Assembly: GCF_003032475.1 (NCBI RefSeq)
Contig: NZ_CP028369.1
Coordinates: 930,001-994,000, forward strand
From: Streptomyces sp. P3
GTDB taxonomy: Bacteria; Actinomycetota; Actinomycetes; Streptomycetales; Streptomycetaceae
Direction of reading: 5' to 3'
Length of the DNA: 64,000 nt
The notes below the pieces were generated by a model that did not search any database, was not told where the DNA came from, and saw only the letters and a list, made by a program, of their open reading frames with translations. Position 1 is the first letter of the stretch. Every line of letters starts with the position of its first letter. The position numbers were made by a program, and so were the translations under genes. Below, one piece after another: positions 1-13,863 of this stretch.

Positions 1-2257
1 CGATCGAGTCGAAGCGGGCCGCGATCGCGGCGGGCAGCAGCGGTACCAGGCAGGCCGCGCCGACACTCAGGGCCAGGAGGCCGCGCAGCGATCTACGGGC
101 GGCGTAAAGCGCGATCACCACGATTCCCGCCAGATAGGCCGCACGGCTCAGCGAGTACGCAACTCCCAGGACGAGCACGACGACCCCCGCGCCGATCGCC
201 AGCCGCGACAGGGGTGCCCGGACGGCCGGATAGCGCCTGAGCAGGACCGCGGCCGCCATGACGAACAGGGCGCCCACGGCGTTGTGGTTGGCCGTGTCCT
301 CCTGCGTGATGGCCAGAACGGCGGTGTCAGCAGGGGCGAGTCCCGACTTCGCGAAGACGGAGCCGATCTGAACGATGTCGATCAAGGCGACAATCACGCT
401 GCCGCAACAGAACACCACGAGCGCCCGGTCGAGAGGCCGTCCAGGTTCGGCGACCAGCGGCAGCAGCAGCAGTGGCGCGCACATCAGCAGCAGGTAGTGC
501 CATTTGTCGGCGCCCAGCAGATCGGTGTCGCCGATCATGACGCTGGCGGCCACCAGGTAGCCGACCGTGCCCACGGTGATCAGGACGCCGATGGGCTTCG
601 GCCGCGCGATCCCCCGACCGGCGATGACGCGACCCAGCAGGCAGACGAGCATGAGAGCGATCAGCACACTCGGGGTGATCAGCGAGTCGCCGATGTCGGA
701 CTGTGAGAGCGGGATGGCCGCCGCGAGTACACACAGACCCACCTCCGGGATCAGGGCCAGCACGATGACCACGAGCGGGGCGGCGGCGACGGCGCTGAGG
801 GCAGGGCTGTACGCCGTCGCGAGACAGCCGGCACCCGCCACGGTCAGGAGTACCGCCGCGACCATGAACCGACCACTGGCCAGGACGGGCCTCACCGGTC
901 TCGAGTACGCACCCCGCCGGCGATCGCCGATCGTCCTGACCCACAGGCCGGCGAGGGGGCGGGCCGGTGCGGCCGCCGTCTCGTCGCCGCCGTGCTCGGC
1001 CGAACGGCGCCGACGGGCGCGGACAGCCAGGCGCACGCCGTAGGCGAGCAGCACCGCGAGCACCAGGTTTCCCGCCGAGTCGGCCACTCCGGCACCGATC
1101 GCGGCATGGTGGGGGGTCAAGGCCACGAGCAGCGCGATGTTGACCATCGCACCGATCACCGTGGCCGTGACCACCGGCCGGAGCAGGCCGACGGCGGCCA
1201 GGTAGGGCTGGACCGAACGGGCCGCGCTGAACAGGACGAGGCCGGGCAGCATCGCCCAGAGCACCGGCACGGCACCGGCGTACGGCCGCCCGTAGACCAC
1301 TGGGATCAGGATGGGTGCAGTTACCGCCGCCGCGGCGGCAGCAGTGGCGGCGGCGATGAACACGGTGCGGGCGATCCTGGCAGCAGCCCGCGCATCGACG
1401 GAACCGGAAGTGACGGCGGGAAACATCACCAGCGCGACCGTCGTCGACAGCAGGAGCAGTCCCTCTGCCAGGGGCAGGGCCACCGCGTACACGGCCACGG
1501 CCGTCGCCCCGGCGAGCGTCTGGATCACCGGCACGTCCAGGCGCAGCATTCCGTAATGGATGAGGTTCGGGAGATAGGACCTGACGGCGAAGCTGCCGAA
1601 GGCACGGCCGGAGAGGGGTTCGCCATCGGCGTGGACGCGGGTGGTGGACGCGATCAGCAGCATCGCGGCGCAGAGCAGTTGGCCGGCCAGCACCGACAGG
1701 AAGCAGCTGATGGGGGTCAGCGATCCCGCGGCGAGCAGGCCGCAGACACCGACGAGGTAACCGGCCGCGGGGACGGTGCTGATCAGGTTGTACGTCGCGA
1801 CCCGGCCGCGACCGAGTTCAGCCATACCCAGCAGCGTGGTCAGCAAGCTCACCGGGCATATGGCCGCCACGAGCATCGCAAGCCGGTACGGCACGCCGAG
1901 CAGCACTGCCGGCCAGAAATGACCGAGCAGCAGCCACAGCCCCGCCAGCGCGGAACCCGAAGACATGGAGAACACCAGGCTCCACCGGACGATCTGCCGG
2001 AACGCGGTGTGCGAGGTCCCGGCGAACCGTGCGTTGGCGTTGTCCACACCAAGGACCGTGACGATGCTCAGCATGGAGGGGACCGAGATCATGACCGCGA
2101 ACGTGGCCCTGCCCCCCACCCCGAGAGCCCTCGCGGTGATGACGCCCGCCGCGAAGCTCATCACCGTGGCCAGCAATCGCGTGGCCAGCGTTCCCCCGAT
2201 CGCCGCCGGACTCACCCCCGGCAGCCGGGCCCGGAGACTTCTCGTGATCGACAGCAC
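1..2257 (-). CDS. Fused Wzx-type flippase / Wzy (O-antigen ligase-type) polymerase, 3' end outside window
   Basis: One minus-strand frame stays open from beyond position 2300 to the window edge; every triplet of this frame was checked for stops. From GTG 2257, about residues 1-405 form a polytopic protein of the MATE/polysaccharide-flippase type (early motif GGTLATRLLATVMSF, then many hydrophobic segments). An Arg-rich linker (about 406-462) leads without a stop into a second multi-spanning part with Wzy/O-antigen-ligase character (GVAYSLSRAAYLAGI near the edge). The product would flip undecaprenyl-linked repeat units and polymerise or ligate them; Wzx and Wzy are normally separate proteins. 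GTG 2257 is preferred because GGAGG lies 10 nt upstream. An in-frame ATG at 2380 lacks a Shine-Dalgarno and would translate the tetranucleotide repeat. Fusion is seen directly; the activities are inferred from topology and motifs. Confidence 0.8.
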   Translation of the reverse strand, partial: MLSITRSLRARLPGVSPAAIGGTLATRLLATVMSFAAGVITARALGVGGRATFAVMISVPSMLSIVTVLGVDNANARFAGTSHTAFRQIVRWSLVFSMSSGSALAGLWLLLGHFWPAVLLGVPYRLAMLVAAICPVSLLTTLLGMAELGRGRVATYNLISTVPAAGYLVGVCGLLAAGSLTPISCFLSVLAGQLLCAAMLLIASTTRVHADGEPLSGRAFGSFAVRSYLPNLIHYGMLRLDVPVIQTLAGATAVAVYAVALPLAEGLLLLSTTVALVMFPAVTSGSVDARAAARIARTVFIAAATAAAAAAVTAPILIPVVYGRPYAGAVPVLWAMLPGLVLFSAARSVQPYLAAVGLLRPVVTATVIGAMVNIALLVALTPHHAAIGAGVADSAGNLVLAVLLAYGVRLAVRARRRRSAEHGGDETAAAPARPLAGLWVRTIGDRRRGAYSRPVRPVLASGRFMVAAVLLTVAGAGCLATAYSPALSAVAAAPLVVIVLALIPEVGLCVLAAAIPLSQSDIGDSLITPSVLIALMLVCLLGRVIAGRGIARPKPIGVLITVGTVGYLVAASVMIGDTDLLGADKWHYLLLMCAPLLLLPLVAEPGRPLDRALVVFCCGSVIVALIDIVQIGSVFAKSGLAPADTAVLAITQEDTANHNAVGALFVMAAAVLLRRYPAVRAPLSRLAIGAGVVVLVLGVAYSLSRAAYLAGIVVIALYAARRSLRGLLALSVGAACLVPLLPAAIAARFDSI

Positions 2258-2326
2258 TGGGGAACGGCCTCCGGGGTCACGAGTCGGATCGGTGCTGCTG
2301 GGAGCGGCGGATGTTCTCGCCGACTC

Positions 2327-2366
<40 letters not shown>

Positions 2367-2380
2367 CAATGTAGCGGCAT

Positions 2381-3102
2381 CAATAGCTGAAAGTAGTGAT
2401 TCGTACACGTTGAGTAGTAGATTTCTGGTAGCCGGGTCGGCCGCCGCCACGGCCGGACGCCGGGGGAAGGCTCTTCCGGCGCGGACGACCGGGTAGGACA
2501 GGAGAACGCGGCTGTGACGATGCTCGGGCCTGCTGCCCGCTCCGACCACGGTGGCGATGGCAACTCCGGTCGCCGAGGGCCCGGCTGCTCGCGCGCTGCC
2601 TTTCAGCGGTCCGACGCCGGATACGCTGCCGGCCGGCGATCTGATCGCCACCGGGCACCGGCAGGCCACCACCCACGCTCCGGACCCGCCGACCGCGACG
2701 GTTGCGGAGCTCGCCGTCTGCCCCAAGGCCGCCCGGTTTCCGGTACACCCATCACTTGTCGGCACAGCCGGGCGGTCGGCGTCGACCTGTCAGGCGTCTC
2801 ACTGCGGGCGGCCGGTCTGCTGGCCGACCCGAGCATGACCGCCACGATGTCCCGTGCAGCACGCTGCGCGCCGAGGCGTGGCGGCCAGGACTCCGCGGGC
2901 CCGGAACGTCCTGCTGCCCGATCCCCGAGAGCCGCCGACGGCAGGGGCCGGGCCGCGGCCGACCGGACGAGCCGCCAACACCCATCGATGACGGTGAAAC
3001 CGCCGCCCCGATCACCGGCGCACTGGCGTCACGGCCCCACGACGAGCCCGTTGCCGAGCACGCCGTCGGGTGCGGCAGGGCGGCTTCGGCGGAGGTGAGG
3101 AC
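2381..3102. other. Intergenic region between divergent polysaccharide genes, no convincing gene
   Basis: About 720 bp. The first 50-60 bp (2381-2435) are AT-rich for this genome and probably hold the promoter of the minus-strand flippase-polymerase gene. The rest is GC-rich and open in several frames. The frame at 2551-2838 (GTG start, 95 codons) has GC-rich third positions like a gene but matches no family I recognise. A GTG at 2514 has a good AGGAGA upstream but opens into a frame of unlikely composition. A decayed gene is possible. Confidence 0.5.
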
Positions 3103-4410
3103 ATGAGGATCTGGATCTTCAACCACTACGCGGCGCCCCCGGACTGCGCCGCCGGCACCCGGCACTACGAACTGGGCCGAGTGCTCGCCGCGAAGGGGCA
3201 CGACGTCACCGTCTTCGCCAGCAGCTTCAGCCATTTCAGCAGACGCGAGGAACGGCTCGCGCCCGGCGAGAAGGCGGCCACCCGCGTGATCGACGGCGTC
3301 CGCTTCGTCTGGGTCCGCACGCCGCCCTACACCGGAAGCGGATACCGCCGTGTGCTGAACATGGCCCACTACGCGGCCCGAGTGCTCTCGGCGCAGCGTG
3401 GCCTGAACCGGCCGGATGTGATCGTCGGCTCATCAGTACACCTGCCCGCGGTGCTCGCCGCCTGGCTGGCGGCCCGCAGCCGCCGCGCCCGCTTCGTCTT
3501 CGAGGTGCGCGATCTGTGGCCGCAGACACTGATCGACATGGGCGCGCTGCGCGCGAACGGGCTGGCTGCCCGGCTGCTCCGGCTGGCCGAGTCCTTCTGC
3601 TGCCGACGGGCGTCCGCCGTGATCTGCCTCCTGCCCGGTGCCGCAGACTATCTGGAGGCCCGCGGGCTCCCGGCCGGCAAAATCCATTATGTGCCGAACG
3701 GGATCGCCGACTTCCCCCGGCCGATGGCACCGGGTGAGCCGGCCGACCCGCACGGTGCGGGCCCCCGGGACCGGGTCGCCGACCTGATCGAGCGGATCAG
3801 ACGGTTCCGCAAGGACGGTTGCCTCACCGCCGGCTACATCGGATCGCACGGGCCGGCCAACGGAGTGGCGACCATTGTCGCGGCCGCGGCGGAGCTGCGA
3901 GCGGCCGGCCATCCGCGGGTCGCCGTGGTGATGGTCGGCGACGGCCAGGAGAAGGCCGCGTGTGAACGGCTCGCGCACCGGCACGGCCTGCACGACGTGC
4001 TGTTCTGGCCGCCGGTGCCGAAGCAGGCCGTGCCGGCCGTGCTGGCCGAGCTGGATGTGACGTTGTTCTGCCTGCGTGACGTCGCGGTCTTCAAGTACGG
4101 CCTGAGCAGCAACAAGCTGTTCGACTACCTGGCGTCCGGCAAGCCGGTGCTGTTCGCGAGCAACGCACCGGGCGGCCCGGTGCGCGAGTCCGGCGGCGGC
4201 GTGTGCGTGCCCGCCGAGTCACCGGCGGACATGGCGGGCGCGCTGGCCGAGTTGGCCGCGATGAGCGAGACGGAACGGGAGCGGATGGGCGAGCGCGGAC
4301 GCCGCTGGGTCTACCGGCATCACGGCATGACCGCGCTGGCGGACGCGTTCCTCACCGCGGTCTCGGAACCGGCCAGGGGCGAAGGGCCTGTGACGGAGGC
4401 GCGGCTGTGA
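3103..4410 (+). CDS. Family 4 (GT-B) glycosyltransferase
   Basis: 435 residues, usual GT4 length. The N-terminus (RIWIFNHYAAPPD, then GTRHYELGRVLAAKGHDVTV) is the acceptor-binding Rossmann half found in WbuB/FnlA-type and other exopolysaccharide GT4 enzymes; FEVRDLWPQ is a common GT4 motif; the C-terminal half carries SNKLFDYLASGKPVLF, corresponding to the EX7E nucleotide-sugar region. It probably adds the second sugar to the undecaprenyl-linked primer on the cytoplasmic face. ATG 3103 is chosen over in-frame 3070 because GGAGGTGAGG precedes it. It overlaps the acetyltransferase gene by GTGA, so the two are translated together. Donor sugar cannot be read from the sequence. Confidence 0.88.
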   Translation: MRIWIFNHYAAPPDCAAGTRHYELGRVLAAKGHDVTVFASSFSHFSRREERLAPGEKAATRVIDGVRFVWVRTPPYTGSGYRRVLNMAHYAARVLSAQRGLNRPDVIVGSSVHLPAVLAAWLAARSRRARFVFEVRDLWPQTLIDMGALRANGLAARLLRLAESFCCRRASAVICLLPGAADYLEARGLPAGKIHYVPNGIADFPRPMAPGEPADPHGAGPRDRVADLIERIRRFRKDGCLTAGYIGSHGPANGVATIVAAAAELRAAGHPRVAVVMVGDGQEKAACERLAHRHGLHDVLFWPPVPKQAVPAVLAELDVTLFCLRDVAVFKYGLSSNKLFDYLASGKPVLFASNAPGGPVRESGGGVCVPAESPADMAGALAELAAMSETERERMGERGRRWVYRHHGMTALADAFLTAVSEPARGEGPVTEARL

Positions 4411-5024
4411 CGCTGCACATCGTGGGCGCGGGAGGCTTCGGCAGGGAGACGCTGGACGCGGTGCGGGCGGCAGTCGCGACGCCCGAGGTGGTTTTCGTGG
4501 ACGAGCACCCGGCATCCACCGCGCTGGACGGCTGTCCGGTGCTGCTGCCGGGACAGTTGGCCGCGTCTGACGGGCAGCGGGACGAGTTCGTGGTCGCGAT
4601 CGCCGACACCGACGCGCGCCGCAGGCTCACCCGGGAGTTGGAAGATCGCGGTTGGCGGGCGGCGACAGTGATCGACCCGCGTGCCATTGTCTCCCCCGGC
4701 GCCAGGATCGGGCGCGGCTGTGTCGTGCTCGGTCAGGCGTTCATCTCCACCGGCACCGTCCTCGGCGCACATGTCCAGGTCAACTATCAGGCGAGCATCG
4801 GTCACGACACGGTGCTCGAGGATTTCGTGACGATCCTGCCGGGGGCCAACATCGCCGGCAGCGTGACCATCGGCGCCGGGGCCACGGTCGGCAGTAACGC
4901 CGCCGTGCTGCAGGGCCGTCGGATCGGGCCGTCCGTCATGGTCGGCGCCGCGGCTCTGGTGACGCGTGATGTCGCCGCCGGTCAATTGGTCGTCGGCGTC
5001 CCCGCCAGGGCCCGGAAGCCCTGA
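4407..5024 (+). CDS. NeuD/PglD-type sugar O/N-acetyltransferase
   Basis: 205 residues. The N-terminal small Rossmann part begins HIVGAGGFGRET, the signature of the NeuD/PglD/EpsM family. From about residue 85 there are left-handed beta-helix hexapeptide repeats (IVSPGARIGRGC, GSVTIGAGATVGSNAAV) typical of acetyl-CoA-dependent trimeric acyltransferases. The conserved His of PglD-type enzymes fits SIGHDTVLED. With the aminotransferase and dehydratase nearby it most likely acetylates the 4-amino group of a UDP-4-amino-6-deoxy sugar. GTG 4407 overlaps the stop of the GT4 gene. An O-acetyltransferase role is the main alternative. Confidence 0.85.
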   Translation: MTLHIVGAGGFGRETLDAVRAAVATPEVVFVDEHPASTALDGCPVLLPGQLAASDGQRDEFVVAIADTDARRRLTRELEDRGWRAATVIDPRAIVSPGARIGRGCVVLGQAFISTGTVLGAHVQVNYQASIGHDTVLEDFVTILPGANIAGSVTIGAGATVGSNAAVLQGRRIGPSVMVGAAALVTRDVAAGQLVVGVPARARKP

Positions 5025-5261: not shown

Positions 5262-6425
5262 TCACCCGGCGCCAACCGGCATCGGCTGATCCGTGGCGTT
5301 CCGCCACGCGGTTGCCCGGCCGGCGACGGTGGTCACCGTGTCGGCGATCTCGGCCACCTCGGCCTCGGTCAGCCGGTGGTGCACCGGCAGCGAGAGCATC
5401 GCCTGGGCGACGGCCTCGGTCACCGGCAGTGCCGCCACGTCCCCGGGGCCGCGGTCCCGCCCGGCGAAGATCGGCTGCCGGTGTACCGGCGGGAAGTAGA
5501 TCCGTGCCTCGATGCCCTGGTCCAACAGGCCGGCGAGTACTTGCTCACGGATGCCGGGAAGCAGGCAGGTGTAGAGCATCCAACTTCCCCGGGCATCGGG
5601 TACCTGATACGGCGTCGTCAGGCCGGGCAGCCCGGCCAGCCGTCGGGTCAGTGATTGCGCGATCAGCTGTTTGCGCCCCAGGATGCCGTCCAGCTTGCGC
5701 AGCTGCACCCGGCCGATCGCGGCCTGCATCTCGGTCAGCCGCCAGTTGTACCCGAGGCTCTCATGCCGGTACAGCCCGGTCTGACCATGATTGCGGAGCA
5801 GCTTCAACCGCTCCGCGACACCCGGGTCGTTGGTCAGTACCATGCCGCCCTCACCGGTGGTGATGTTCTTGGTAGGGGTGAAGCTGAACATGGCCGACCT
5901 ACCGAAGGTGCCGACCGGTCTGCCGCGGTACTCGGCGCCGGCCGCCTGCGCGGCGTCCTCCAGCAACGGCACGCCGGCCGCACCGCATACCCGCGCCAGC
6001 CCGTCGAGGTCACCGGGCTGGCCGGCGTAGTGCACGGTCAGGACGGCACGCGTGGCCCGGGTGATCCGAGCCGCGACCGATACCGGGTCGAGGTTGAACG
6101 TCCGTGGGTCGACGTCGGCGAACACCGGGGTGGCCCCGACGTGGCACACCGATGTCGCGGTGGCGACGAAGGTCATCGACGGGACGATCACCTCGTCGCC
6201 GGGGCCGATGCCCTCGGCGAGCAACATCGCGTGCAGCGCGGCCGTGCCGGTGCAGAACGTCACGCCGAACCGCGCCTGATGCCGATCGGCGAACTCCTGC
6301 GCGAAGGCCTCGTTCTCCGCGCCGTTGGTGAGAACACCGCTGCGCAGGACCCTGCGAACCGCCTCCTCCTCCTCCTCACCGAGACCGGGACTGGCAAGCC
6401 GGATCCGGACGTTGCTGTCAGGCAC
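5262..6425 (-). CDS. DegT/DnrJ/EryC1-family PLP aminotransferase (PglE-like)
   Basis: 387 residues, full length. Fold type I PLP enzyme of the sugar-aminotransferase family: Lys186 in FTPTKNITTGEGG forms the Schiff base, EDAAQAAGA (around 156) holds the PLP-binding Asp, and FCTGTAALHAMLLA is the cofactor phosphate loop. The opening (RIRLASPGLGEEEEEAV) resembles PglE/PseC/ArnB enzymes that aminate UDP-4-keto-6-deoxy sugars. Its product would feed the acetyltransferase at 4407-5024. The start overlaps the sugar transferase stop by 8 bp, so it is the last gene of the minus-strand unit 9101 to 5262. The plus-strand acetyltransferase converges on it with a 237-bp gap. Confidence 0.9.
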   Translation of the reverse strand: MPDSNVRIRLASPGLGEEEEEAVRRVLRSGVLTNGAENEAFAQEFADRHQARFGVTFCTGTAALHAMLLAEGIGPGDEVIVPSMTFVATATSVCHVGATPVFADVDPRTFNLDPVSVAARITRATRAVLTVHYAGQPGDLDGLARVCGAAGVPLLEDAAQAAGAEYRGRPVGTFGRSAMFSFTPTKNITTGEGGMVLTNDPGVAERLKLLRNHGQTGLYRHESLGYNWRLTEMQAAIGRVQLRKLDGILGRKQLIAQSLTRRLAGLPGLTTPYQVPDARGSWMLYTCLLPGIREQVLAGLLDQGIEARIYFPPVHRQPIFAGRDRGPGDVAALPVTEAVAQAMLSLPVHHRLTEAEVAEIADTVTTVAGRATAWRNATDQPMPVGAG

Positions 6426-7146
6426 CTGAGAGCTGCCTTTCTGGTTTGCGAGCGATCGGATCGTTGTCGTGGCCGGCGGTGGCTCCGCGCCCGGCCAGGA
6501 CCGTCCAGACGGTGAGGAACAGGATGACCAGGTCGAGCCGGAAGCTCTGGCGAAGGACGTAACACAGGTCCCACTCGATGCGCTCCGGCCAGCTCAGCCG
6601 CTGTCGCCCGTGCACCTGCGCCAGGCCGGTCAGGCCCGGGGCGGCCAGCAGCCGCGCCTGCTGACGATCGGTGTACCGGCGTACCTGGTAGGGCAGTGTC
6701 GGCCGAGGTCCGACCAGGCTCATCTGTCCGCGCAGCACGTTGACCAGCTGCGGCAACTCGTCAAGGGACGTGCGGCGGAGCACCCGGCCGACCGCGGTCA
6801 CCCGCGCGGTGTCGGCGTCACCCGGACTCTCCGGGCCGGCCGGAGCATTCCGCATCGTGCGCAGCTTCAGCAGGACGAACAGGCGGCCGTCGCGGCCGAC
6901 CCGCTGCTGGCGGAACAGGACGGGTCTGCCATGCGCGAGCAGGTGCGCCAGCGCTGCGATCGCGCAGAGCAGCGCGGCCGGCACGATGATCAGGCTGACC
7001 ACGACCAGGTCCAGCAGCCGCTTGCCGCGGTACGACCTGCGGTGAGGCTCCCGGTTGTCGGCCCTGGTGCCTCCGGGCCTTGCGGTGTGCGCCTCCCGGA
7101 TCACCGAGTCTGCCGGGTGACGGTCCGGCAGAGGCGGGGCGGTCAT
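6418..7146 (-). CDS. Initiating undecaprenyl-phosphate phosphoglycosyl transferase (PglC/WcaJ type)
   Basis: 242 residues, the small monotopic PGT type rather than the long polytopic WbaP/CpsE type. Basic lead-in then one membrane segment (about 45-68), RPVLFRQQRVGRDG, KLRTM, the catalytic Asp-Glu dyad in SLDELPQLVNVLRG (129-130) and MSLVGPRPTLP. These are the conserved features of the bacterial sugar transferase family (PglC, WcaJ, PssY), which transfer sugar-1-phosphate from a UDP-sugar to undecaprenyl phosphate. A weakly hydrophobic tail lies at 215-235. Overlaps by 4 bp (ATGA) with the upstream dehydratase gene and 8 bp with the aminotransferase gene, consistent with one operon making and loading the same sugar. 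Confidence 0.92.
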   Translation of the reverse strand: MTAPPLPDRHPADSVIREAHTARPGGTRADNREPHRRSYRGKRLLDLVVVSLIIVPAALLCAIAALAHLLAHGRPVLFRQQRVGRDGRLFVLLKLRTMRNAPAGPESPGDADTARVTAVGRVLRRTSLDELPQLVNVLRGQMSLVGPRPTLPYQVRRYTDRQQARLLAAPGLTGLAQVHGRQRLSWPERIEWDLCYVLRQSFRLDLVILFLTVWTVLAGRGATAGHDNDPIARKPERQLSGA

Positions 7147-9101
7147 CTGCTGGCCTCCGCTTTTCCGGGCTGGCCGGGCAGCACGGGCTGGTCGGCCGGC
7201 TGCTCGGGGCCGGGCATGGCCGCGAGGTGCACCAGGGCGGCGCGTACCTCATCGGGATCGGTGGGGTGACCGATGCCGGTAACCTCAGCGGCATCGAGTA
7301 CCGGCACCGGCACCTGGCTGACCAGCGGATGCCTCGGTCGGTGGTCCGGCTCTCCCTCGCCCAGCAGGTCCTCGGTCAGCTTTTCGCCGGGACGCAGCCC
7401 GGTGAAGACGATCTCGACGCGCCGCGATGCCGCGGCGGCCATACGACGGGCGAGGTCGACGATGCGGACCTGCTCTCCCATGTCAAGGACGAGGACTTCA
7501 CCGCTCTCCCCGACGGCCACAGCCTGCAGCACCAGTTGGACGGCTTCGGTGGCTGTCATGAAGTAGCGGGCGACCTGCGGGTGAGTAACGGTGACCGGGC
7601 CGCCCGCGGCGATCTGCGCGGACAGTGAGCCGAGCAGCGAACCCCGGCTGCCCAGGACATTGCCGAACCTGACGGACACCCAGGTCCCGGGCATTTCACC
7701 GGCCATGTGCGCGGTGAGCCGCTCGGTGATCCGCTTGGAGGTGCCGAGGACGCTCACCGGGTCGGCCGCCTTGTCGGTGGAGACGTTCACGAACGACCGC
7801 ACGCCACAGGCCGCAGCCGCCTGGAGCACGTTCAGCGTGCCGGTCACGTTCGTCTTCAGCGCCTCGGCCGGATACCGCTCGAGCAGCGGCAGATGCTTCA
7901 CCGCCGCCGTGTGGAACACGATCTCGGGACGGGTCTGCGCAAAGACCTCGCGGACGCGGGAGGCATCTGTGATGTCGGCGAGCACAACCTCGTCGGAATC
8001 GAGCAGCGCACGGCCGTGCAGCGCGAGCTGGATCGCGTGCAGGGCTGATTCGTCCCGGTCGAGCAACACCAGCGACGCGGGACCCAACCGGTGCAGCTGG
8101 CGGCACAGCTCGGAACCGATCGAGCCACCGGCGCCGGTGACCAGGATGCGGCGTCCGGCGAATTGACCGGCAACCGACTCGATGTCCAGCCGGATCGGAT
8201 CGCGGCCCAGCAGCTGAGTGATCCGCGGGTCACGGACGTCGTCGATCCGCGCCGGTCCGGCGACCAGTTCCTCAACGCTCGGAATCACCTTGGTGATCAG
8301 GCCGGTCGACTCGGCCAGTGTGATCAGCTCGCTGATCACCTGGCCGTCCCGGCACCCGCCGGCGATCGCGATCACCATGACCGTCGCCCCGGTCTCCGCA
8401 GCGACCTCCGCGAGTCGGTCCCGCCCGCCGCGCACTCGGATACCGCAGATCCGCAGCCGGAGCTTGCCCGGGTCGTCATCCAGCAGGGCAACCGGTCGGT
8501 ACTGCGCGCCAGGCTGCCCGATCAGCCGCTGCACCAGTTGCGTTCCGGCATTGCCCGCACCGAACACGATCACCTTGACGGCGGTCGGCGCGGGCCGTCT
8601 CGGCCTGCGCCGGACGGTGGCGACTGCGGCCCTCGCTGTGATCATCGCAAGGACACCGGCCAGGGCGGTGAGGCCGGCCGGACCCGACTTGTCGCCCACC
8701 AGAGGGAGCCCCGCCCGGCAGATGCCCTCCAGGAGGAGACCGGTCAGCCCGGCGGAGACCAGCACCGCGCTCAACTCTGCGCCGGTCTCCGCCTGATAGC
8801 GCTGGGAGTAGAGCCCGCACACGGCCCCGGCCGTTAACGCTGCCGCCCATGTGACAGCACAGACGATCACCAGATCGCCAGGCCCGACGAGCAGACCGGC
8901 AGCGCTGCCGCTGGCCAGGCCGGCGATCGACAGACCGCAAGTCCAGGCGACCGCGTCTATAGCGGCTTGCACGACCGGCCGGCGAAGCCGGGCGGCGACG
9001 CCAGACCGACCACCCCGCCGAGCGTGGCCTTCCTGCGCGGTGTGGAACACCGCGGGATGAACCGCTGTCAGCTTGTCGTTGCCCGCGCATTCCCGACGCA
9101 A
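7143..9101 (-). CDS. Membrane-bound UDP-GlcNAc 4,6-dehydratase (PglF/FlaA1/CapD family)
   Basis: 652 residues. Order: N-terminal membrane domain (about 45-160, four segments); a CoA-binding-like Rossmann domain (VIVFGAGNAGTQLV, 178-190); a catalytic extended SDR domain starting ILVTGAGGSIGSELCRQL (319-336) with STDKAADPVSVLGTSK (441-456). In this family the classical SDR Tyr is replaced, usually by Met, and Asp/Glu/Lys of the TDK region act in catalysis; here the Tyr position is Leu within VLGTSK. It should convert UDP-GlcNAc to UDP-4-keto-6-deoxy-GlcNAc, the first step towards bacillosamine. First gene of the operon with the PGT and aminotransferase. A role in another 6-deoxy-amino sugar cannot be excluded. 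Confidence 0.9.
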   Translation of the reverse strand: MRRECAGNDKLTAVHPAVFHTAQEGHARRGGRSGVAARLRRPVVQAAIDAVAWTCGLSIAGLASGSAAGLLVGPGDLVIVCAVTWAAALTAGAVCGLYSQRYQAETGAELSAVLVSAGLTGLLLEGICRAGLPLVGDKSGPAGLTALAGVLAMITARAAVATVRRRPRRPAPTAVKVIVFGAGNAGTQLVQRLIGQPGAQYRPVALLDDDPGKLRLRICGIRVRGGRDRLAEVAAETGATVMVIAIAGGCRDGQVISELITLAESTGLITKVIPSVEELVAGPARIDDVRDPRITQLLGRDPIRLDIESVAGQFAGRRILVTGAGGSIGSELCRQLHRLGPASLVLLDRDESALHAIQLALHGRALLDSDEVVLADITDASRVREVFAQTRPEIVFHTAAVKHLPLLERYPAEALKTNVTGTLNVLQAAAACGVRSFVNVSTDKAADPVSVLGTSKRITERLTAHMAGEMPGTWVSVRFGNVLGSRGSLLGSLSAQIAAGGPVTVTHPQVARYFMTATEAVQLVLQAVAVGESGEVLVLDMGEQVRIVDLARRMAAAASRRVEIVFTGLRPGEKLTEDLLGEGEPDHRPRHPLVSQVPVPVLDAAEVTGIGHPTDPDEVRAALVHLAAMPGPEQPADQPVLPGQPGKAEASR

Positions 9102-9329: not shown

Positions 9330-11150
9330 CTATTTCACGCACGGCTGGATGCGCACCTTGGTGGTCTGCGGCCGCGCCAACGGCTGCAAGGGCACCACGG
9401 GGGGACGGTCCGAAGCCTGTTCCAGCAGGCGAATGTCCACTTCCCGGGTCTGACCGGGCAGGAGTTCCAGCTGCGTACCGAATACCGGGTGACCGCGCTC
9501 CTCGGTCGACGACAACAGAAGTCGCCGCCCGTCCAGGGTCCCACCGGTAAACCGCGCGCCGGAACTGGCGTACAGCGAAAGCCAGATACTTGTGGACCCC
9601 GGGACGTGTGAGCGCCGGGGATCGTCGGAACGGAGAGCGACAAGGGCAGGCAGGCCCGCAGCGGGAGCGGCGTTTGTCAGCCTGATTCGCACCACGCTGG
9701 AACGGGTACCGCCCGCGCAAGGACCAAGCTCGTAGGTCAGCGACCGTCGCAGATGGTAGTCCATCTTGTTGCCCGCGGAATTGTTGACCACGAGATAGGC
9801 GAACGGCCCTGTTCTCTCGGGGACGTCGCCGGCCAGTCCGGCTTCTTCGAGTGCCGACTCGGTGGGGGCATCTCTGCTCCACACACGCAGTCGGCCGTCG
9901 GTGGCGTTCTGCCGCAGTGCGTGGAGGAGGGCCACCGAATCGTGGTGACGGTGCAGCAAGGCAGTAGCGACCGCCTGGGCGACCTGTACCAGGAAACGCT
10001 TTCGCTCGATGTTGCTGTACGACGCGTAAAGGGTACTCTCGGTGAGCTCTACGGTGTTCTCCGCCGTCAGGCGCTTTCCGTCCGGAAGTCGGACCGGCCC
10101 CGTGGCTTTGAGGACACGGGCGAGGCCCACGGGATCGGTCGCGATGGCTCCATCGAGACGTTGCCCCGTATGCCGCTGCCACAGACCCACCCAGATCTGC
10201 GCCGCATAGGGGAAATGAGCGGACAGATTGGAATTGGCCAGCCCCTGAGCACTCTCAGCAGCTCCGTACCGGCGGTCGAACGTCGGTCCGAAATTCGCCA
10301 CGGGGGTGGTGGTGCGCGGCAGCATGTCGTCCGACGCGAAGTCGTGCAAAGTGATTCGACCACGGTCGGCGGTCAGGATACCGAAAGTGCCTACGAGGCC
10401 ACCGGTGCCTCGGGCCTCGGCGTTGTTCTGGAAGGCGAGAAAGTAGTGGCGTGGCCCCGAGGCGCCCAGAAGAGGCATCAGCAGCCGCGTCGTCGCCTCC
10501 GCCTCCAAGACCGAGTCGGAAAGGCGCGCCACTCGGCCGGACAGCCGCTGCCGTGCCAAGTCGAGGCGACCGACCGCCGTCGAGCCGGGCAGGCCGTGCA
10601 AACCCGTCTCGATTCCGGTCAGCTGACGGTGCACCTTCCCCAGCAGGTTCGTGGCAGCCGCAAACCGACGGAGGTCGACACGGCCATGGTGCACCATCTG
10701 GCCGGACGCGAACATCTGATGCAGTCGCACAGCCTCCGGCAGCACCCCGGTGGCCATCTCGTCGGCGGCGACACTCAGCCCCCGGGCAGAACGGAGCGGT
10801 GGGCCCATCAGCGGGAGGTGCTCGGCCACGCTCCACACCGGCGTGCCGGCCGCGACCCGGGCGGCCGCCGTGTGCTTCCGGATGTCGTCCAGCTCCTCGG
10901 CTGAGGGCCGGCGATGACGGTCCATCTCCGCCTGCAGTCGGTCAGTGGCCACCTGAGCCGCCGCGAGACTGCTCTGGACCGTTCGAACCTCCCACACCAG
11001 GAAACCGGCCGACGCGGCGGAGAACAGACCGACGGCTCCAACGACCCAGAGGAAGGCTCGATGGCGGCGCCGTGACATCAGAGCCGCGAATGCCCGCGCA
11101 CTCTCCACAGCGGCGTTCCGGCTGCGCGCCGGGTCCTTCCCTGCCTTCAT
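9330..11150 (-). CDS. DUF4012 membrane-anchored exported protein
   Basis: 606 residues. A basic N-terminus precedes one membrane segment (FLWVVGAVGLFSAASAGFLVW, cut here to its core, about 34-54); the rest is predicted extracytoplasmic. A coiled-coil-like stretch (55-95) is followed by the DUF4012 region with LAFQNNAEARGTGGLVGTFG (about 237-256), a hallmark of the family. DUF4012 proteins recur in actinobacterial exopolysaccharide loci and are suggested to act in assembly or attachment; their biochemistry is not settled to my knowledge. Same strand as the dehydratase operon but separated by 228 bp, so probably its own transcript. ATG 11150. Confidence 0.8.
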   Translation of the reverse strand: MKAGKDPARSRNAAVESARAFAALMSRRRHRAFLWVVGAVGLFSAASAGFLVWEVRTVQSSLAAAQVATDRLQAEMDRHRRPSAEELDDIRKHTAAARVAAGTPVWSVAEHLPLMGPPLRSARGLSVAADEMATGVLPEAVRLHQMFASGQMVHHGRVDLRRFAAATNLLGKVHRQLTGIETGLHGLPGSTAVGRLDLARQRLSGRVARLSDSVLEAEATTRLLMPLLGASGPRHYFLAFQNNAEARGTGGLVGTFGILTADRGRITLHDFASDDMLPRTTTPVANFGPTFDRRYGAAESAQGLANSNLSAHFPYAAQIWVGLWQRHTGQRLDGAIATDPVGLARVLKATGPVRLPDGKRLTAENTVELTESTLYASYSNIERKRFLVQVAQAVATALLHRHHDSVALLHALRQNATDGRLRVWSRDAPTESALEEAGLAGDVPERTGPFAYLVVNNSAGNKMDYHLRRSLTYELGPCAGGTRSSVVRIRLTNAAPAAGLPALVALRSDDPRRSHVPGSTSIWLSLYASSGARFTGGTLDGRRLLLSSTEERGHPVFGTQLELLPGQTREVDIRLLEQASDRPPVVPLQPLARPQTTKVRIQPCVK

Positions 11151-11520: not shown

Positions 11521-11787
11521 ATGAACCAAAGCGGGAAGGTGGCGTTTCCGCAGGTGCGGACCGCACCCAATGCGAAGGTCGACGCGTCGGCCGTGCTGAG
11601 CCCTGGTACCACCGAGTTGTCCGACGTCGTCCGGGCCGCAAAGGGAGCGCCACTCGGCGAGCGTCCGGGCGCGCTGCCGGATCAGGTCGGATTCTGGGAG
11701 CGCCCGCGTAACGGGATTCTCCGCGCAGAGAGAGACGACATCCTGACGGAGTTTTCAGCTCAATACCGAGAAAAGTCGAGCCCGTGA
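11521..11787 (+). CDS. Short ORF coupled to wecB, function unknown
   Basis: 88 residues from ATG 11521, ending in a TGA that overlaps the GTG of wecB (GTGA), the arrangement typical of coupled genes here. The product is hydrophilic (starts MNQSGKVAFPQV, ends SAQYREKSSP) with no motif I recognise. No Shine-Dalgarno precedes ATG 11521, and the frame extends upstream to 11425 through the 15-bp repeats, so it may be the 3' remnant of a longer gene truncated by rearrangement. Only the tight coupling argues for expression. Confidence 0.4.
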   Translation: MNQSGKVAFPQVRTAPNAKVDASAVLSPGTTELSDVVRAAKGAPLGERPGALPDQVGFWERPRNGILRAERDDILTEFSAQYREKSSP

Positions 11788-12884
11788 AGGTCATGAGCGT
11801 AGTGGGGGCGCGCCCCCAATTCGTCAAACTTGCCGCAGTCGCCGCGGCGTTCGGCAGCACGGAGCACGATCATACGATCGTCCACACCGGCCAGCACTAC
11901 GACGCCGATCTCTCCGACGTCTTCTTCACCGGCCTCTCCATCCCGAAGCCCCAAGTGCACTTGGGTGTGGGCTCAGGCACCCACGGAGTGCAGACCGGTG
12001 CCATCCTGGCGGCCCTCGATCCGGTCATCGCCGCCGCACACCCCGAATGGGTGCTGGTTTACGGAGACACCAACTCGACTCTTGCCGGCGCACTTTCCGC
12101 GGCCAAACAGCACATCCCCGTTGCCCACCTGGAAGCGGGCCTGCGCTCTTTCAACCGGCGGATGCCCGAGGAGCACAACCGCGTCCTCACCGACCACGCC
12201 GCCGACCTGCTCCTCGCGCCCACCGAGAAGGCGGTGCACCACTTGACGGCCGAGGGCCTGGCCGACCGTGCGGTCCTGACCGGGGACGTCATGGTCGATG
12301 TTTGCCTGCGCATCAGGGACAAGGTGCTGAGAGACAAAGCCACCGCCGCGCTTCCGGCCTTCCTCGAGGCCAGGGAGCCCTACCTCTTCGCCACATTGCA
12401 CCGGGCCGAGAACACGGATCGTCCCGATCGCCTGGCCGCTCTCGTGGACGCCCTGGCCAGTCTGCCGGTTCCCGTCGCCTTGGCCGCCCATCCCCGACTG
12501 CTCGCACGTGCCGAGGAGTTCGGCATCAAGCTCGACCAGGGCTCCCTCCATATCAGCCGCCCCCTTCCCTATGCCGAGCTGATCCCCACGGTGCTCGGCT
12601 CGCGCGGCGTGATCACTGACTCGGGAGGACTCCAGAAAGAGGCGTTCCTGCTGGAGCGCGTCTGCACGACACTCCGTACGGAGACGGAATGGCCTGAAAC
12701 GCTCCGGGACGGCTGGAACACACTCGCGCCGGATCCTGGTGAGCTGGGCTCCCCGGCATGGCCCGACACCGTCCTGCGCGCTGCGCCCAAGAGCTCACGC
12801 GGCATGCCGTACGGCGACGGCAAAGCAGCCCCCCGGGTGGTGCGGGCGCTGGAAGATCACGTGCGTGGATCCCAGGCGCGCTGA
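11784..12884 (+). CDS. wecB: UDP-N-acetylglucosamine 2-epimerase (non-hydrolysing)
   Basis: 366 residues, full length. GT-B-like fold enzyme interconverting UDP-GlcNAc and UDP-ManNAc in the cytoplasm. Family motifs: VVGARPQFVKLA at the N-terminus, VYGDTNSTLAGAL, HLEAGLRSF and RMPEEHNR (the two catalytic acidic residues), TLHRAEN (catalytic His) and SGGLQKEAFLL (UDP binding). No UDP-ManNAc dehydrogenase (wecC) is visible in the window, so ManNAc itself may be incorporated, or the partner lies elsewhere. GTG 11784 overlaps the preceding ORF; an internal ATG at 11793 is an alternative start. It closes the polysaccharide region before the IS110 remnant. Confidence 0.93.
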   Translation: MKVMSVVGARPQFVKLAAVAAAFGSTEHDHTIVHTGQHYDADLSDVFFTGLSIPKPQVHLGVGSGTHGVQTGAILAALDPVIAAAHPEWVLVYGDTNSTLAGALSAAKQHIPVAHLEAGLRSFNRRMPEEHNRVLTDHAADLLLAPTEKAVHHLTAEGLADRAVLTGDVMVDVCLRIRDKVLRDKATAALPAFLEAREPYLFATLHRAENTDRPDRLAALVDALASLPVPVALAAHPRLLARAEEFGIKLDQGSLHISRPLPYAELIPTVLGSRGVITDSGGLQKEAFLLERVCTTLRTETEWPETLRDGWNTLAPDPGELGSPAWPDTVLRAAPKSSRGMPYGDGKAAPRVVRALEDHVRGSQAR

Positions 12885-12907: not shown

Positions 12908-13633
12908 TCACCCTCGACCTGTGTCGCTGACGAAAGGCACCGCTCGGGAAAGTCCGACCCAGTGCAGATCCGTCTGCGAGCAGATCAAGACTCTGAAGAA
13001 GGAGACCGCCGAACCGACGCGGGCCAACGGGATCCTGAACTCGGCAGACTGCGTCGAACAGCCTCCGCGCGTCAGCCTCGGAATCGCAGCCGCCGCGGAG
13101 GCCGAAACGCCGCCCCGAGACTGCCCTTCTGATCGCAGGGCAGCATCCCACAAAGAGACCAGCAGGCCACGGATCTGGTTCATCGCCTGCGTGCGGGCCT
13201 TGACGGCGCTGCGGCGGGCGATCCGTAGAACCCGCACCGCCTCGACCACGCCGTCCCGGCTCTTGGGGACGCCGGTGGCGCGTCCGGACAGCACGGCCGT
13301 CGCAGCGGCGTAGGCGTCGATCGGGTCGGACTTGCCCTTCATCCGCCGCGTCTTGCGGTCGGGGCGGTCGACATCGATGACTGTGACGCCGGCGGCGGTC
13401 AGCACCCGGGCGAGTTCGGCGCCGTAGGCGCCGGTGCCCTCTACCCCGGCCGCGACGAGGCGGCCGTGTGAGCGCATCCAGTCCAGCAGGTCCCGGTAAC
13501 CCCGGACGGTGGCGGGGAACTCCCGGTCGGCCAGGTGCCGGCCGACCGTGTCGATCACGGCCGCGTGATGGGTCAGGCCGTGTGTGTCGACACCGCCGGT
13601 GATCTGCGGGCCGTCGTGCGTCATGCTGGGCAT
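12908..13633 (-). pseudogene. IS110-family transposase remnant (N-terminal DEDD domain only)
   Basis: From ATG 13633 the frame begins with the IS110 RuvC-like domain: GGVDTHGLTHHAAVID (first catalytic Asp), AGVEGTGAYGAEL (Glu), KTRRMKGKSDPIDAYAAA (DP-D motif) and VKARTQAMNQIRGLLV. After about 180 residues the similarity fails, and the C-terminal Transposase_20 domain with its catalytic Ser is missing. The adjacent minus-strand frame has a few plausible continuation residues around 12980-13080, suggesting a frameshift followed by deletion. Inactive. It sits directly downstream of wecB. Confidence 0.85.
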
Positions 13634-13863
13634 GTCCGTCCTTGTGGCGTGTCCGTTCCGAGGGCGGCACGCGCCGGTCGGGCGGGTGGACAAGACGGTG
13701 ACGGAGCTTGTGGACCAAGCTCCTACAAGGTCACAGACGCCCGTCCGGCCGCGTGCGTCGCGGCCCTGCCGACGAGCCGACAAACCCTAAACAGGACAGT
13801 CGATGACGTCAGTCAGTAGGCGAGTCAGGCTCATTAGCAGAACCACCAGTCACATCCTCACTG

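Follow-up and report, generated by a model that had tools for sequence, protein, structure and literature searches.

A single gene encoding a predicted flippase joined to a predicted Wzy-type polymerase in a probable exopolysaccharide cluster of Streptomyces sp. P3

A reading frame joining two membrane enzymes

The window analysed here is a stretch of 64,000 nucleotides (positions 930,001-994,000 of contig NZ_CP028369.1, assembly GCF_003032475.1) from the single-contig, 9.85 Mb genome of Streptomyces sp. P3. Its left edge cuts a minus-strand gene in which a putative Wzx-type flippase and a putative Wzy-type polymerase share one reading frame. Moving a lipid-linked unit across the membrane and stringing such units together are normally the work of separate proteins. 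The gene was followed beyond the edge in a fetched stretch reaching left of the window (L004; subtracting 12000 from an L004 coordinate gives the window coordinate). Its features, in window coordinates, are:

1..2257, minus strand: gene for the putative fused flippase-polymerase, codons 1-752 and part of codon 753 of 907, continuing 466 bases beyond the left edge
1013..2206, minus strand: predicted Wzx/MOP flippase domain, residues 18-415
872..1042, minus strand: variable linker (residues 406-462) rich in Arg, with its initial portion at the position of the essential C-terminal Arg tail of WzxE
1..871 within the window, minus strand: predicted WaaL/Wzy-type GT-C domain, residues 463-907, with the His motif H816-N-x9-G-xx-G left of the window
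2268..2273, minus strand: Shine-Dalgarno sequence CGGAGG, kept in six fetched relatives
2327..2366, minus strand: TGCC array of ten perfect copies within the 5' leader

A preliminary description of this DNA had reported the frame free of stops from 2377 down to 1; it is in fact open from 2563 down to the left edge, and the leftward extension proposed there as a check places the stop 466 bases further on. With the left flank included, the whole frame occupies L004:11534-14563 (minus strand), 1009 codons counted from the first possible TTG, while from the GTG at 2257 the gene encodes 907 amino acids (L004:11534-14257). This GTG, the start originally suggested, is most likely the true one, because the Shine-Dalgarno sequence upstream of it is kept in all six fetched relatives and because the GTG and the first residues of the protein align with those of relatives in a 16-row alignment; the longer TTG-started frame was dropped on the same evidence. 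The database entry for the gene (P0002, 852 amino acids) begins at residue 56 and is contained in P0001. The frame is a gene and not a chance opening, since relatives of the same length occur in independent assemblies, the ratio of nonsynonymous to synonymous substitution rates (dN/dS) against five relatives is 0.24-0.47 in both halves, and the guanine-plus-cytosine (GC) content by codon position is coding-like in each 60-codon window, linker included, the last few codons being the exception. The stop codon shares an ATGA with the start of the glycosyltransferase gene that follows, an overlap suggestive of translational coupling of the two.

Outside the array, five consecutive TGCC copies occur nowhere in the genome; a reversed control pattern is matched twice. 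At this site, three close relatives (L006-L008) carry TGCCTTCATGCC or TGCCTGCATGCC, an unexpanded version within a conserved leader. Phase variation by frame-shift was considered and rejected because the array sits upstream of the Shine-Dalgarno sequence; it could tune expression of the polysaccharide genes.

The two halves and the linker

Sequence and predicted fold support the view that the N-terminal half (residues 1-415) is a Wzx/MOP flippase, as first proposed, which would flip units linked to undecaprenyl pyrophosphate. The AlphaFold2 model has a MOP fold of about 12 helices, PF13440 was matched above its cut-off in a genome-wide family search, and a profile of this half with seven solo proteins matches WzxE alone (E 5.6e-4). 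R150, R239 and E265 are invariant in all 77 rows of alignment A1, made of the window protein and 76 of the 97 database hits described below. The half is like WzxE and other Wzx flippases of the MOP type in fold, in length, in its 12 segments and, probably, in the Arg-rich stretch after the last helix; WzxE, however, ends at its Arg tail, whereas the Streptomyces sp. P3 protein runs on into a second enzyme.

That second domain (residues 463-907) was initially described as being of the Wzy/O-antigen-ligase type, and its assignment as a Wzy/WaaL GT-C enzyme is supported by a Wzy_C domain match, by a WaaL-like GT-C fold in the predicted structure and by R764 and H816, invariant in 77 of 77 rows. 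Their counterparts in the aligned WaaL chain are R265 and H313, which we take to be the WaaL active-site residues. A catalytic His and a substrate-guiding Arg have been proposed for WaaL (excerpts of PMC12800693). Fold, Wzy_C domain and invariant Arg and His are thus held in common with WaaL ligases and Wzy polymerases (Wzy_C proteins whose GT-C fold is also that of SEDS proteins), from which the fusion protein differs in carrying a flippase at its N terminus.

We infer that this half most likely polymerises rather than ligates, on the basis of the Wzz/Wzc-type co-polymerase in the cluster. It could instead be a ligase or an O-oligosaccharyltransferase, in which case the protein would flip a finished glycan and attach it to a protein or cell-wall acceptor. 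The closest solved structures to it are those of WaaL, an oligosaccharyltransferase structure (9rmk) is also near by sequence, and the protein has a weak NCBIfam match to the O-linking oligosaccharyltransferase TfpM (16.2 bits, the cut-off being 600). The structures listed include none of a Wzy protein, however, so that WaaL would be the expected best match for a polymerase too. Moreover, co-polymerases of the Wzz/Wzc type accompany polymers, and the genome's three remaining Wzy_C matches lie more than 2 Mb off, leaving no other polymerase at hand in the cluster. We therefore regard attachment of a finished glycan as improbable.

The linker stands where it had been placed from the sequence (residues 406-462): 13 of its 57 residues are Arg, and it overlaps the stretch of lowest AlphaFold2 confidence (residues 428-490), its own confidence being in part very low. 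WzxE depends on a C-terminal tail rich in Arg (R413-415), close to where its lumen opens to the cytoplasm (excerpts of PMC11706664). The WzxE alignment stops at chain residue 414, opposite the linker start, and 67 of the 77 members have at least three Arg or Lys among the 20 residues after position 402. Judged by this position and composition, the start of the linker is probably the flippase's own Arg tail, prolonged into the next enzyme. The linker varies from 22 to 69 residues in length (median 40, 77 members) and is the least conserved part of the protein, with dN of 0.20-1.05 as against 0.05-0.27 in the halves (five relatives).

Spread and conservation of the fusion

A protein search with the fusion (8000 candidates scored, proteins shorter than 0.55 times the query being barred) gave 97 entries, one of them the window gene's own (P0002). 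All but one of the other 96 are at least 783 amino acids long and carry PF04932. The exception, P0097 (536 amino acids), whose match to the window protein stops after residue 334, looks like a broken copy and was not used further. Genera named among the hits include Streptomyces, Kitasatospora, Streptacidiphilus and, at 36% identity, Micromonospora, and the comparison with related Streptomyces called for in the preliminary description found the same length and layout in independent assemblies. Five hits have precomputed Pfam matches to both a flippase family and Wzy_C. Pairwise distances for the N-terminal and C-terminal halves are correlated (r = 0.89, 2926 pairs). Both halves lie in one conserved polypeptide.

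The arrangement had been put forward as undescribed. No paper on a Wzx-Wzy fusion is among the matches listed in the open-licence literature (titles and abstract starts, subscription papers being outside its scope), but many such fusions are already on deposit in sequence databases, 32 of the 97 hits, counted by eye, bearing an automatic name with both parts (e.g. 'O-antigen/teichoic acid export membrane protein/O-antigen ligase'). The fusion is a rare and patchy trait, since, with a single protein as the query, direct searches of 150 sampled Streptomyces genomes recovered the family from Streptomyces sp. P3 alone, and those of 246 class members from that genome and one more, where a 30% match covered just the flippase half.

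Half-length searches, each over the 8000 best candidates, gave seven hits for the N-terminal half, of which P0099 (named partial), P0100 and P0101 reach 50% identity or above, and 17 for the C-terminal half, several on contigs shorter than 3 kb and one being the long P0089. FastTree trees, in which the outgroup did not root cleanly, placed three N-terminal and five C-terminal solo halves among or beside fused members, and later splits or broken contigs are therefore likelier than an ancestral unfused form.

The fusion might exist at the gene level only, the linker being cut after translation and two ordinary proteins working as usual. The variable, in part poorly modelled linker and the existence of solo halves would suit such processing, but the linker has no visible conserved motif in the 16-row alignment and the double-length form predominates in the family, which makes cleavage very unlikely. 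An indel joining two adjacent genes, through an error of assembly or annotation, would have precedent in that adjacent unfused Wzy and Wzx genes are known in Actinomycetes (e.g. L073), but is ruled out by the same fusion in independent assemblies down to 36% identity, the one-contig genome and the coding-like linker.

In L073 (3444-6523), an unfused Wzy gene is directly followed by a stretch 29% identical to the N-terminal half of the fusion, the order being reversed; one TAG was counted in this match in the genome search.

A possible second fusion

Wzy_C proteins were surveyed in 148 class members, at least 119 of which have a match. The matches listed include 21 frames of at least 790 amino acids besides the window's own, 19 of which were examined (three of these, L033, L039 and L052, are seen only in 3.4-3.5 kb loci that may cut the frame). 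Two of the 19, in two genomes of another family, are double-length polytopic proteins with 21 and 22 hydrophobic segments, respectively:

L063:3991-6789, minus strand: double-length Wzy_C protein with a possible flippase half
L064:3754-6714, minus strand: double-length Wzy_C protein with a possible flippase half

They are 62% identical to each other and 24-26% identical to window-family members over nearly their full length (composition correction off), and partial matches to Wzz/Wzc and GT4b proteins adjoin both. That their N-terminal half is a flippase is weakly supported: in L063 it matches PF01943 at 8.8e-5 (22.5 bits, below the cut-off of 28.2) and its nearest PDB sequence is a SemiSWEET (E 0.0011), no flippase family was matched by that of L064, and a profile comparison of this half with the window family was weak (probability 12%). 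When the halves were placed in trees beside 33 solo flippases and 33 solo Wzy proteins, members of the window family grouped together in both cases (support 99 and 88), and the L063/L064 pair fell outside that group each time, a tentative placement given modest support and long branches. A second, independent origin of a flippase-polymerase fusion seems likely from these sequences.

The polysaccharide cluster

The following genes surround the fusion:

3070..4410, plus strand: GT4-type glycosyltransferase (GT4a) of the same cluster
4404..5024, plus strand: PglD-like acetyltransferase
5262..6425, minus strand: DegT/DnrJ/EryC1-type sugar aminotransferase
6418..7146, minus strand: initiating phosphoglycosyl transferase (PGT; Bac_transf)
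7143..9101, minus strand: PglF/CapD-like nucleotide-sugar 4,6-dehydratase (Polysacc_synt_2)
11784..12884, plus strand: UDP-GlcNAc 2-epimerase family protein, with a relative in the fetched stretch of four of six loci (L007, where it is cut, L009, L010 and L011)
L004:9343-10350, left of the window: glucuronyl C5-epimerase (PF06662), near the fusion in all six fetched relatives

With three GT4 glycosyltransferases in all and a Wzz/Wzc-type protein, the cluster has the make-up of a Wzx/Wzy-dependent system (initiating PGT, glycosyltransferases, flippase, polymerase and Wzz/Wzc), Wzx and Wzy being encoded by one frame instead of as separate proteins. No other match to Wzy_C (three, more than 2 Mb away) or PF13440 (two, more than 1 Mb away) lies nearby in the genome, the sister family PF01943 not having been searched. 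Within the fetched stretches, PglF, PGT, DegT, GT4a, the fusion, GT4b, the C5-epimerase and at least part of GT4c are kept in all six loci and PglD is seen in five; L009 also carries a UDP-glucose dehydrogenase. Because of this gene content, the product is most likely a uronic-acid exopolysaccharide from a Wzx/Wzy-type pathway, and the C5-epimerase kept near the fusion makes an actinomycete iduronate polymer possible. The wps-1, wps-2 and wps-3 clusters of Actinoplanes missouriensis are likewise actinomycete Wzx/Wzy-dependent exopolysaccharide clusters with Wzz and glycosyltransferase genes, and DegT in two of them, but each of the three encodes Wzx and Wzy in separate genes (excerpts of PMC13390465).

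A DUF4012 protein lies at the cluster edge (window 9330-11150), and an IS110-type transposase adjoins the cluster (window 12911-13783). An imperfect CGGCT array of about 27 copies (L004:3567-3701) lies between two ABC transporter genes and reaches the start of the second.

A model for coupled flipping and polymerisation

We consider it probable (roughly 0.8) that this protein serves a Wzx/Wzy-dependent exopolysaccharide cluster as both its flippase and its polymerase, its halves fused to couple both steps. The single frame, the conservation of both halves and the cluster are direct observations, as are the two folds in so far as they are predictions; we infer the two activities, the nature of the sugars, the topology and the coupling of function. 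Hydropathy gives 12 segments per half, so all four ends and the linker would be cytoplasmic, with both working faces where a flippase and a polymerase need them. In this single 907-residue membrane protein of about 24 helices, residues 1-415 would carry the lipid-linked repeat unit across to the outer membrane face, the cytoplasmic Arg-rich tail and linker would follow, and residues 463-907, a Wzy-type GT-C polymerase of WaaL/SEDS fold, would move the growing chain to the unit that has just been flipped, at that outer face. The co-polymerase would be the separate Wzz/Wzc-type protein of the same cluster, and the repeat unit probably begins with a PglF/DegT/PglD-type amino sugar and would contain a C5-epimerised uronic acid. 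It is reasonable to suppose that the fusion tethers flipping to polymerisation, as it would hold each polymerase beside a supply of flipped units and fix a 1:1 ratio.

Several results weigh against this. An hmmscan at E <= 10 gave no flippase family in the N-terminal half, the match coming only from the genome-wide family search, and the WzxE lumen residues R44, R143, R239 and D262 are not all opposite invariant residues in the sequence alignment, judged by eye. The predicted structure has a predicted template modelling score (pTM) of 0.66 and does not show the halves packing on each other. Both halves also have stand-alone relatives, and the fusion is therefore not an absolute requirement. 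Within the fetched stretches, the Wzz/Wzc gene is seen in only two of the six relatives.

The fusion itself is real, conserved and functional-looking, a variant of known Wzx and Wzy enzymes whose steps it would couple. A Wzx-Wzy-Wzz complex has been proposed from complementation work (quoted in excerpts of PMC10030265), flippase and polymerase being thought to lie side by side there as well; the link in that case is protein contact, whereas in Streptomyces sp. P3 it is covalent. That the fusion is natural and conserved speaks independently for the two belonging together. More speculatively, and in our view less likely than not, the protein may be a single-chain hand-over machine in which the flippase's essential Arg tail has become a tether to the polymerase, whose active site would receive every flipped unit directly, such covalent flippase-polymerase units having arisen at least twice in Actinomycetes. 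If so, Wzx-Wzy contact would be functionally favoured in ordinary unfused systems too.

Wzy proteins are difficult to overexpress and purify (excerpts of PMC12004945). The fusion offers a ready-made object of fixed stoichiometry for structure determination and for in vitro assays of flipping plus polymerisation, and the conserved cluster around it suggests an actinomycete polysaccharide containing uronic acid and involving a C5-epimerase.
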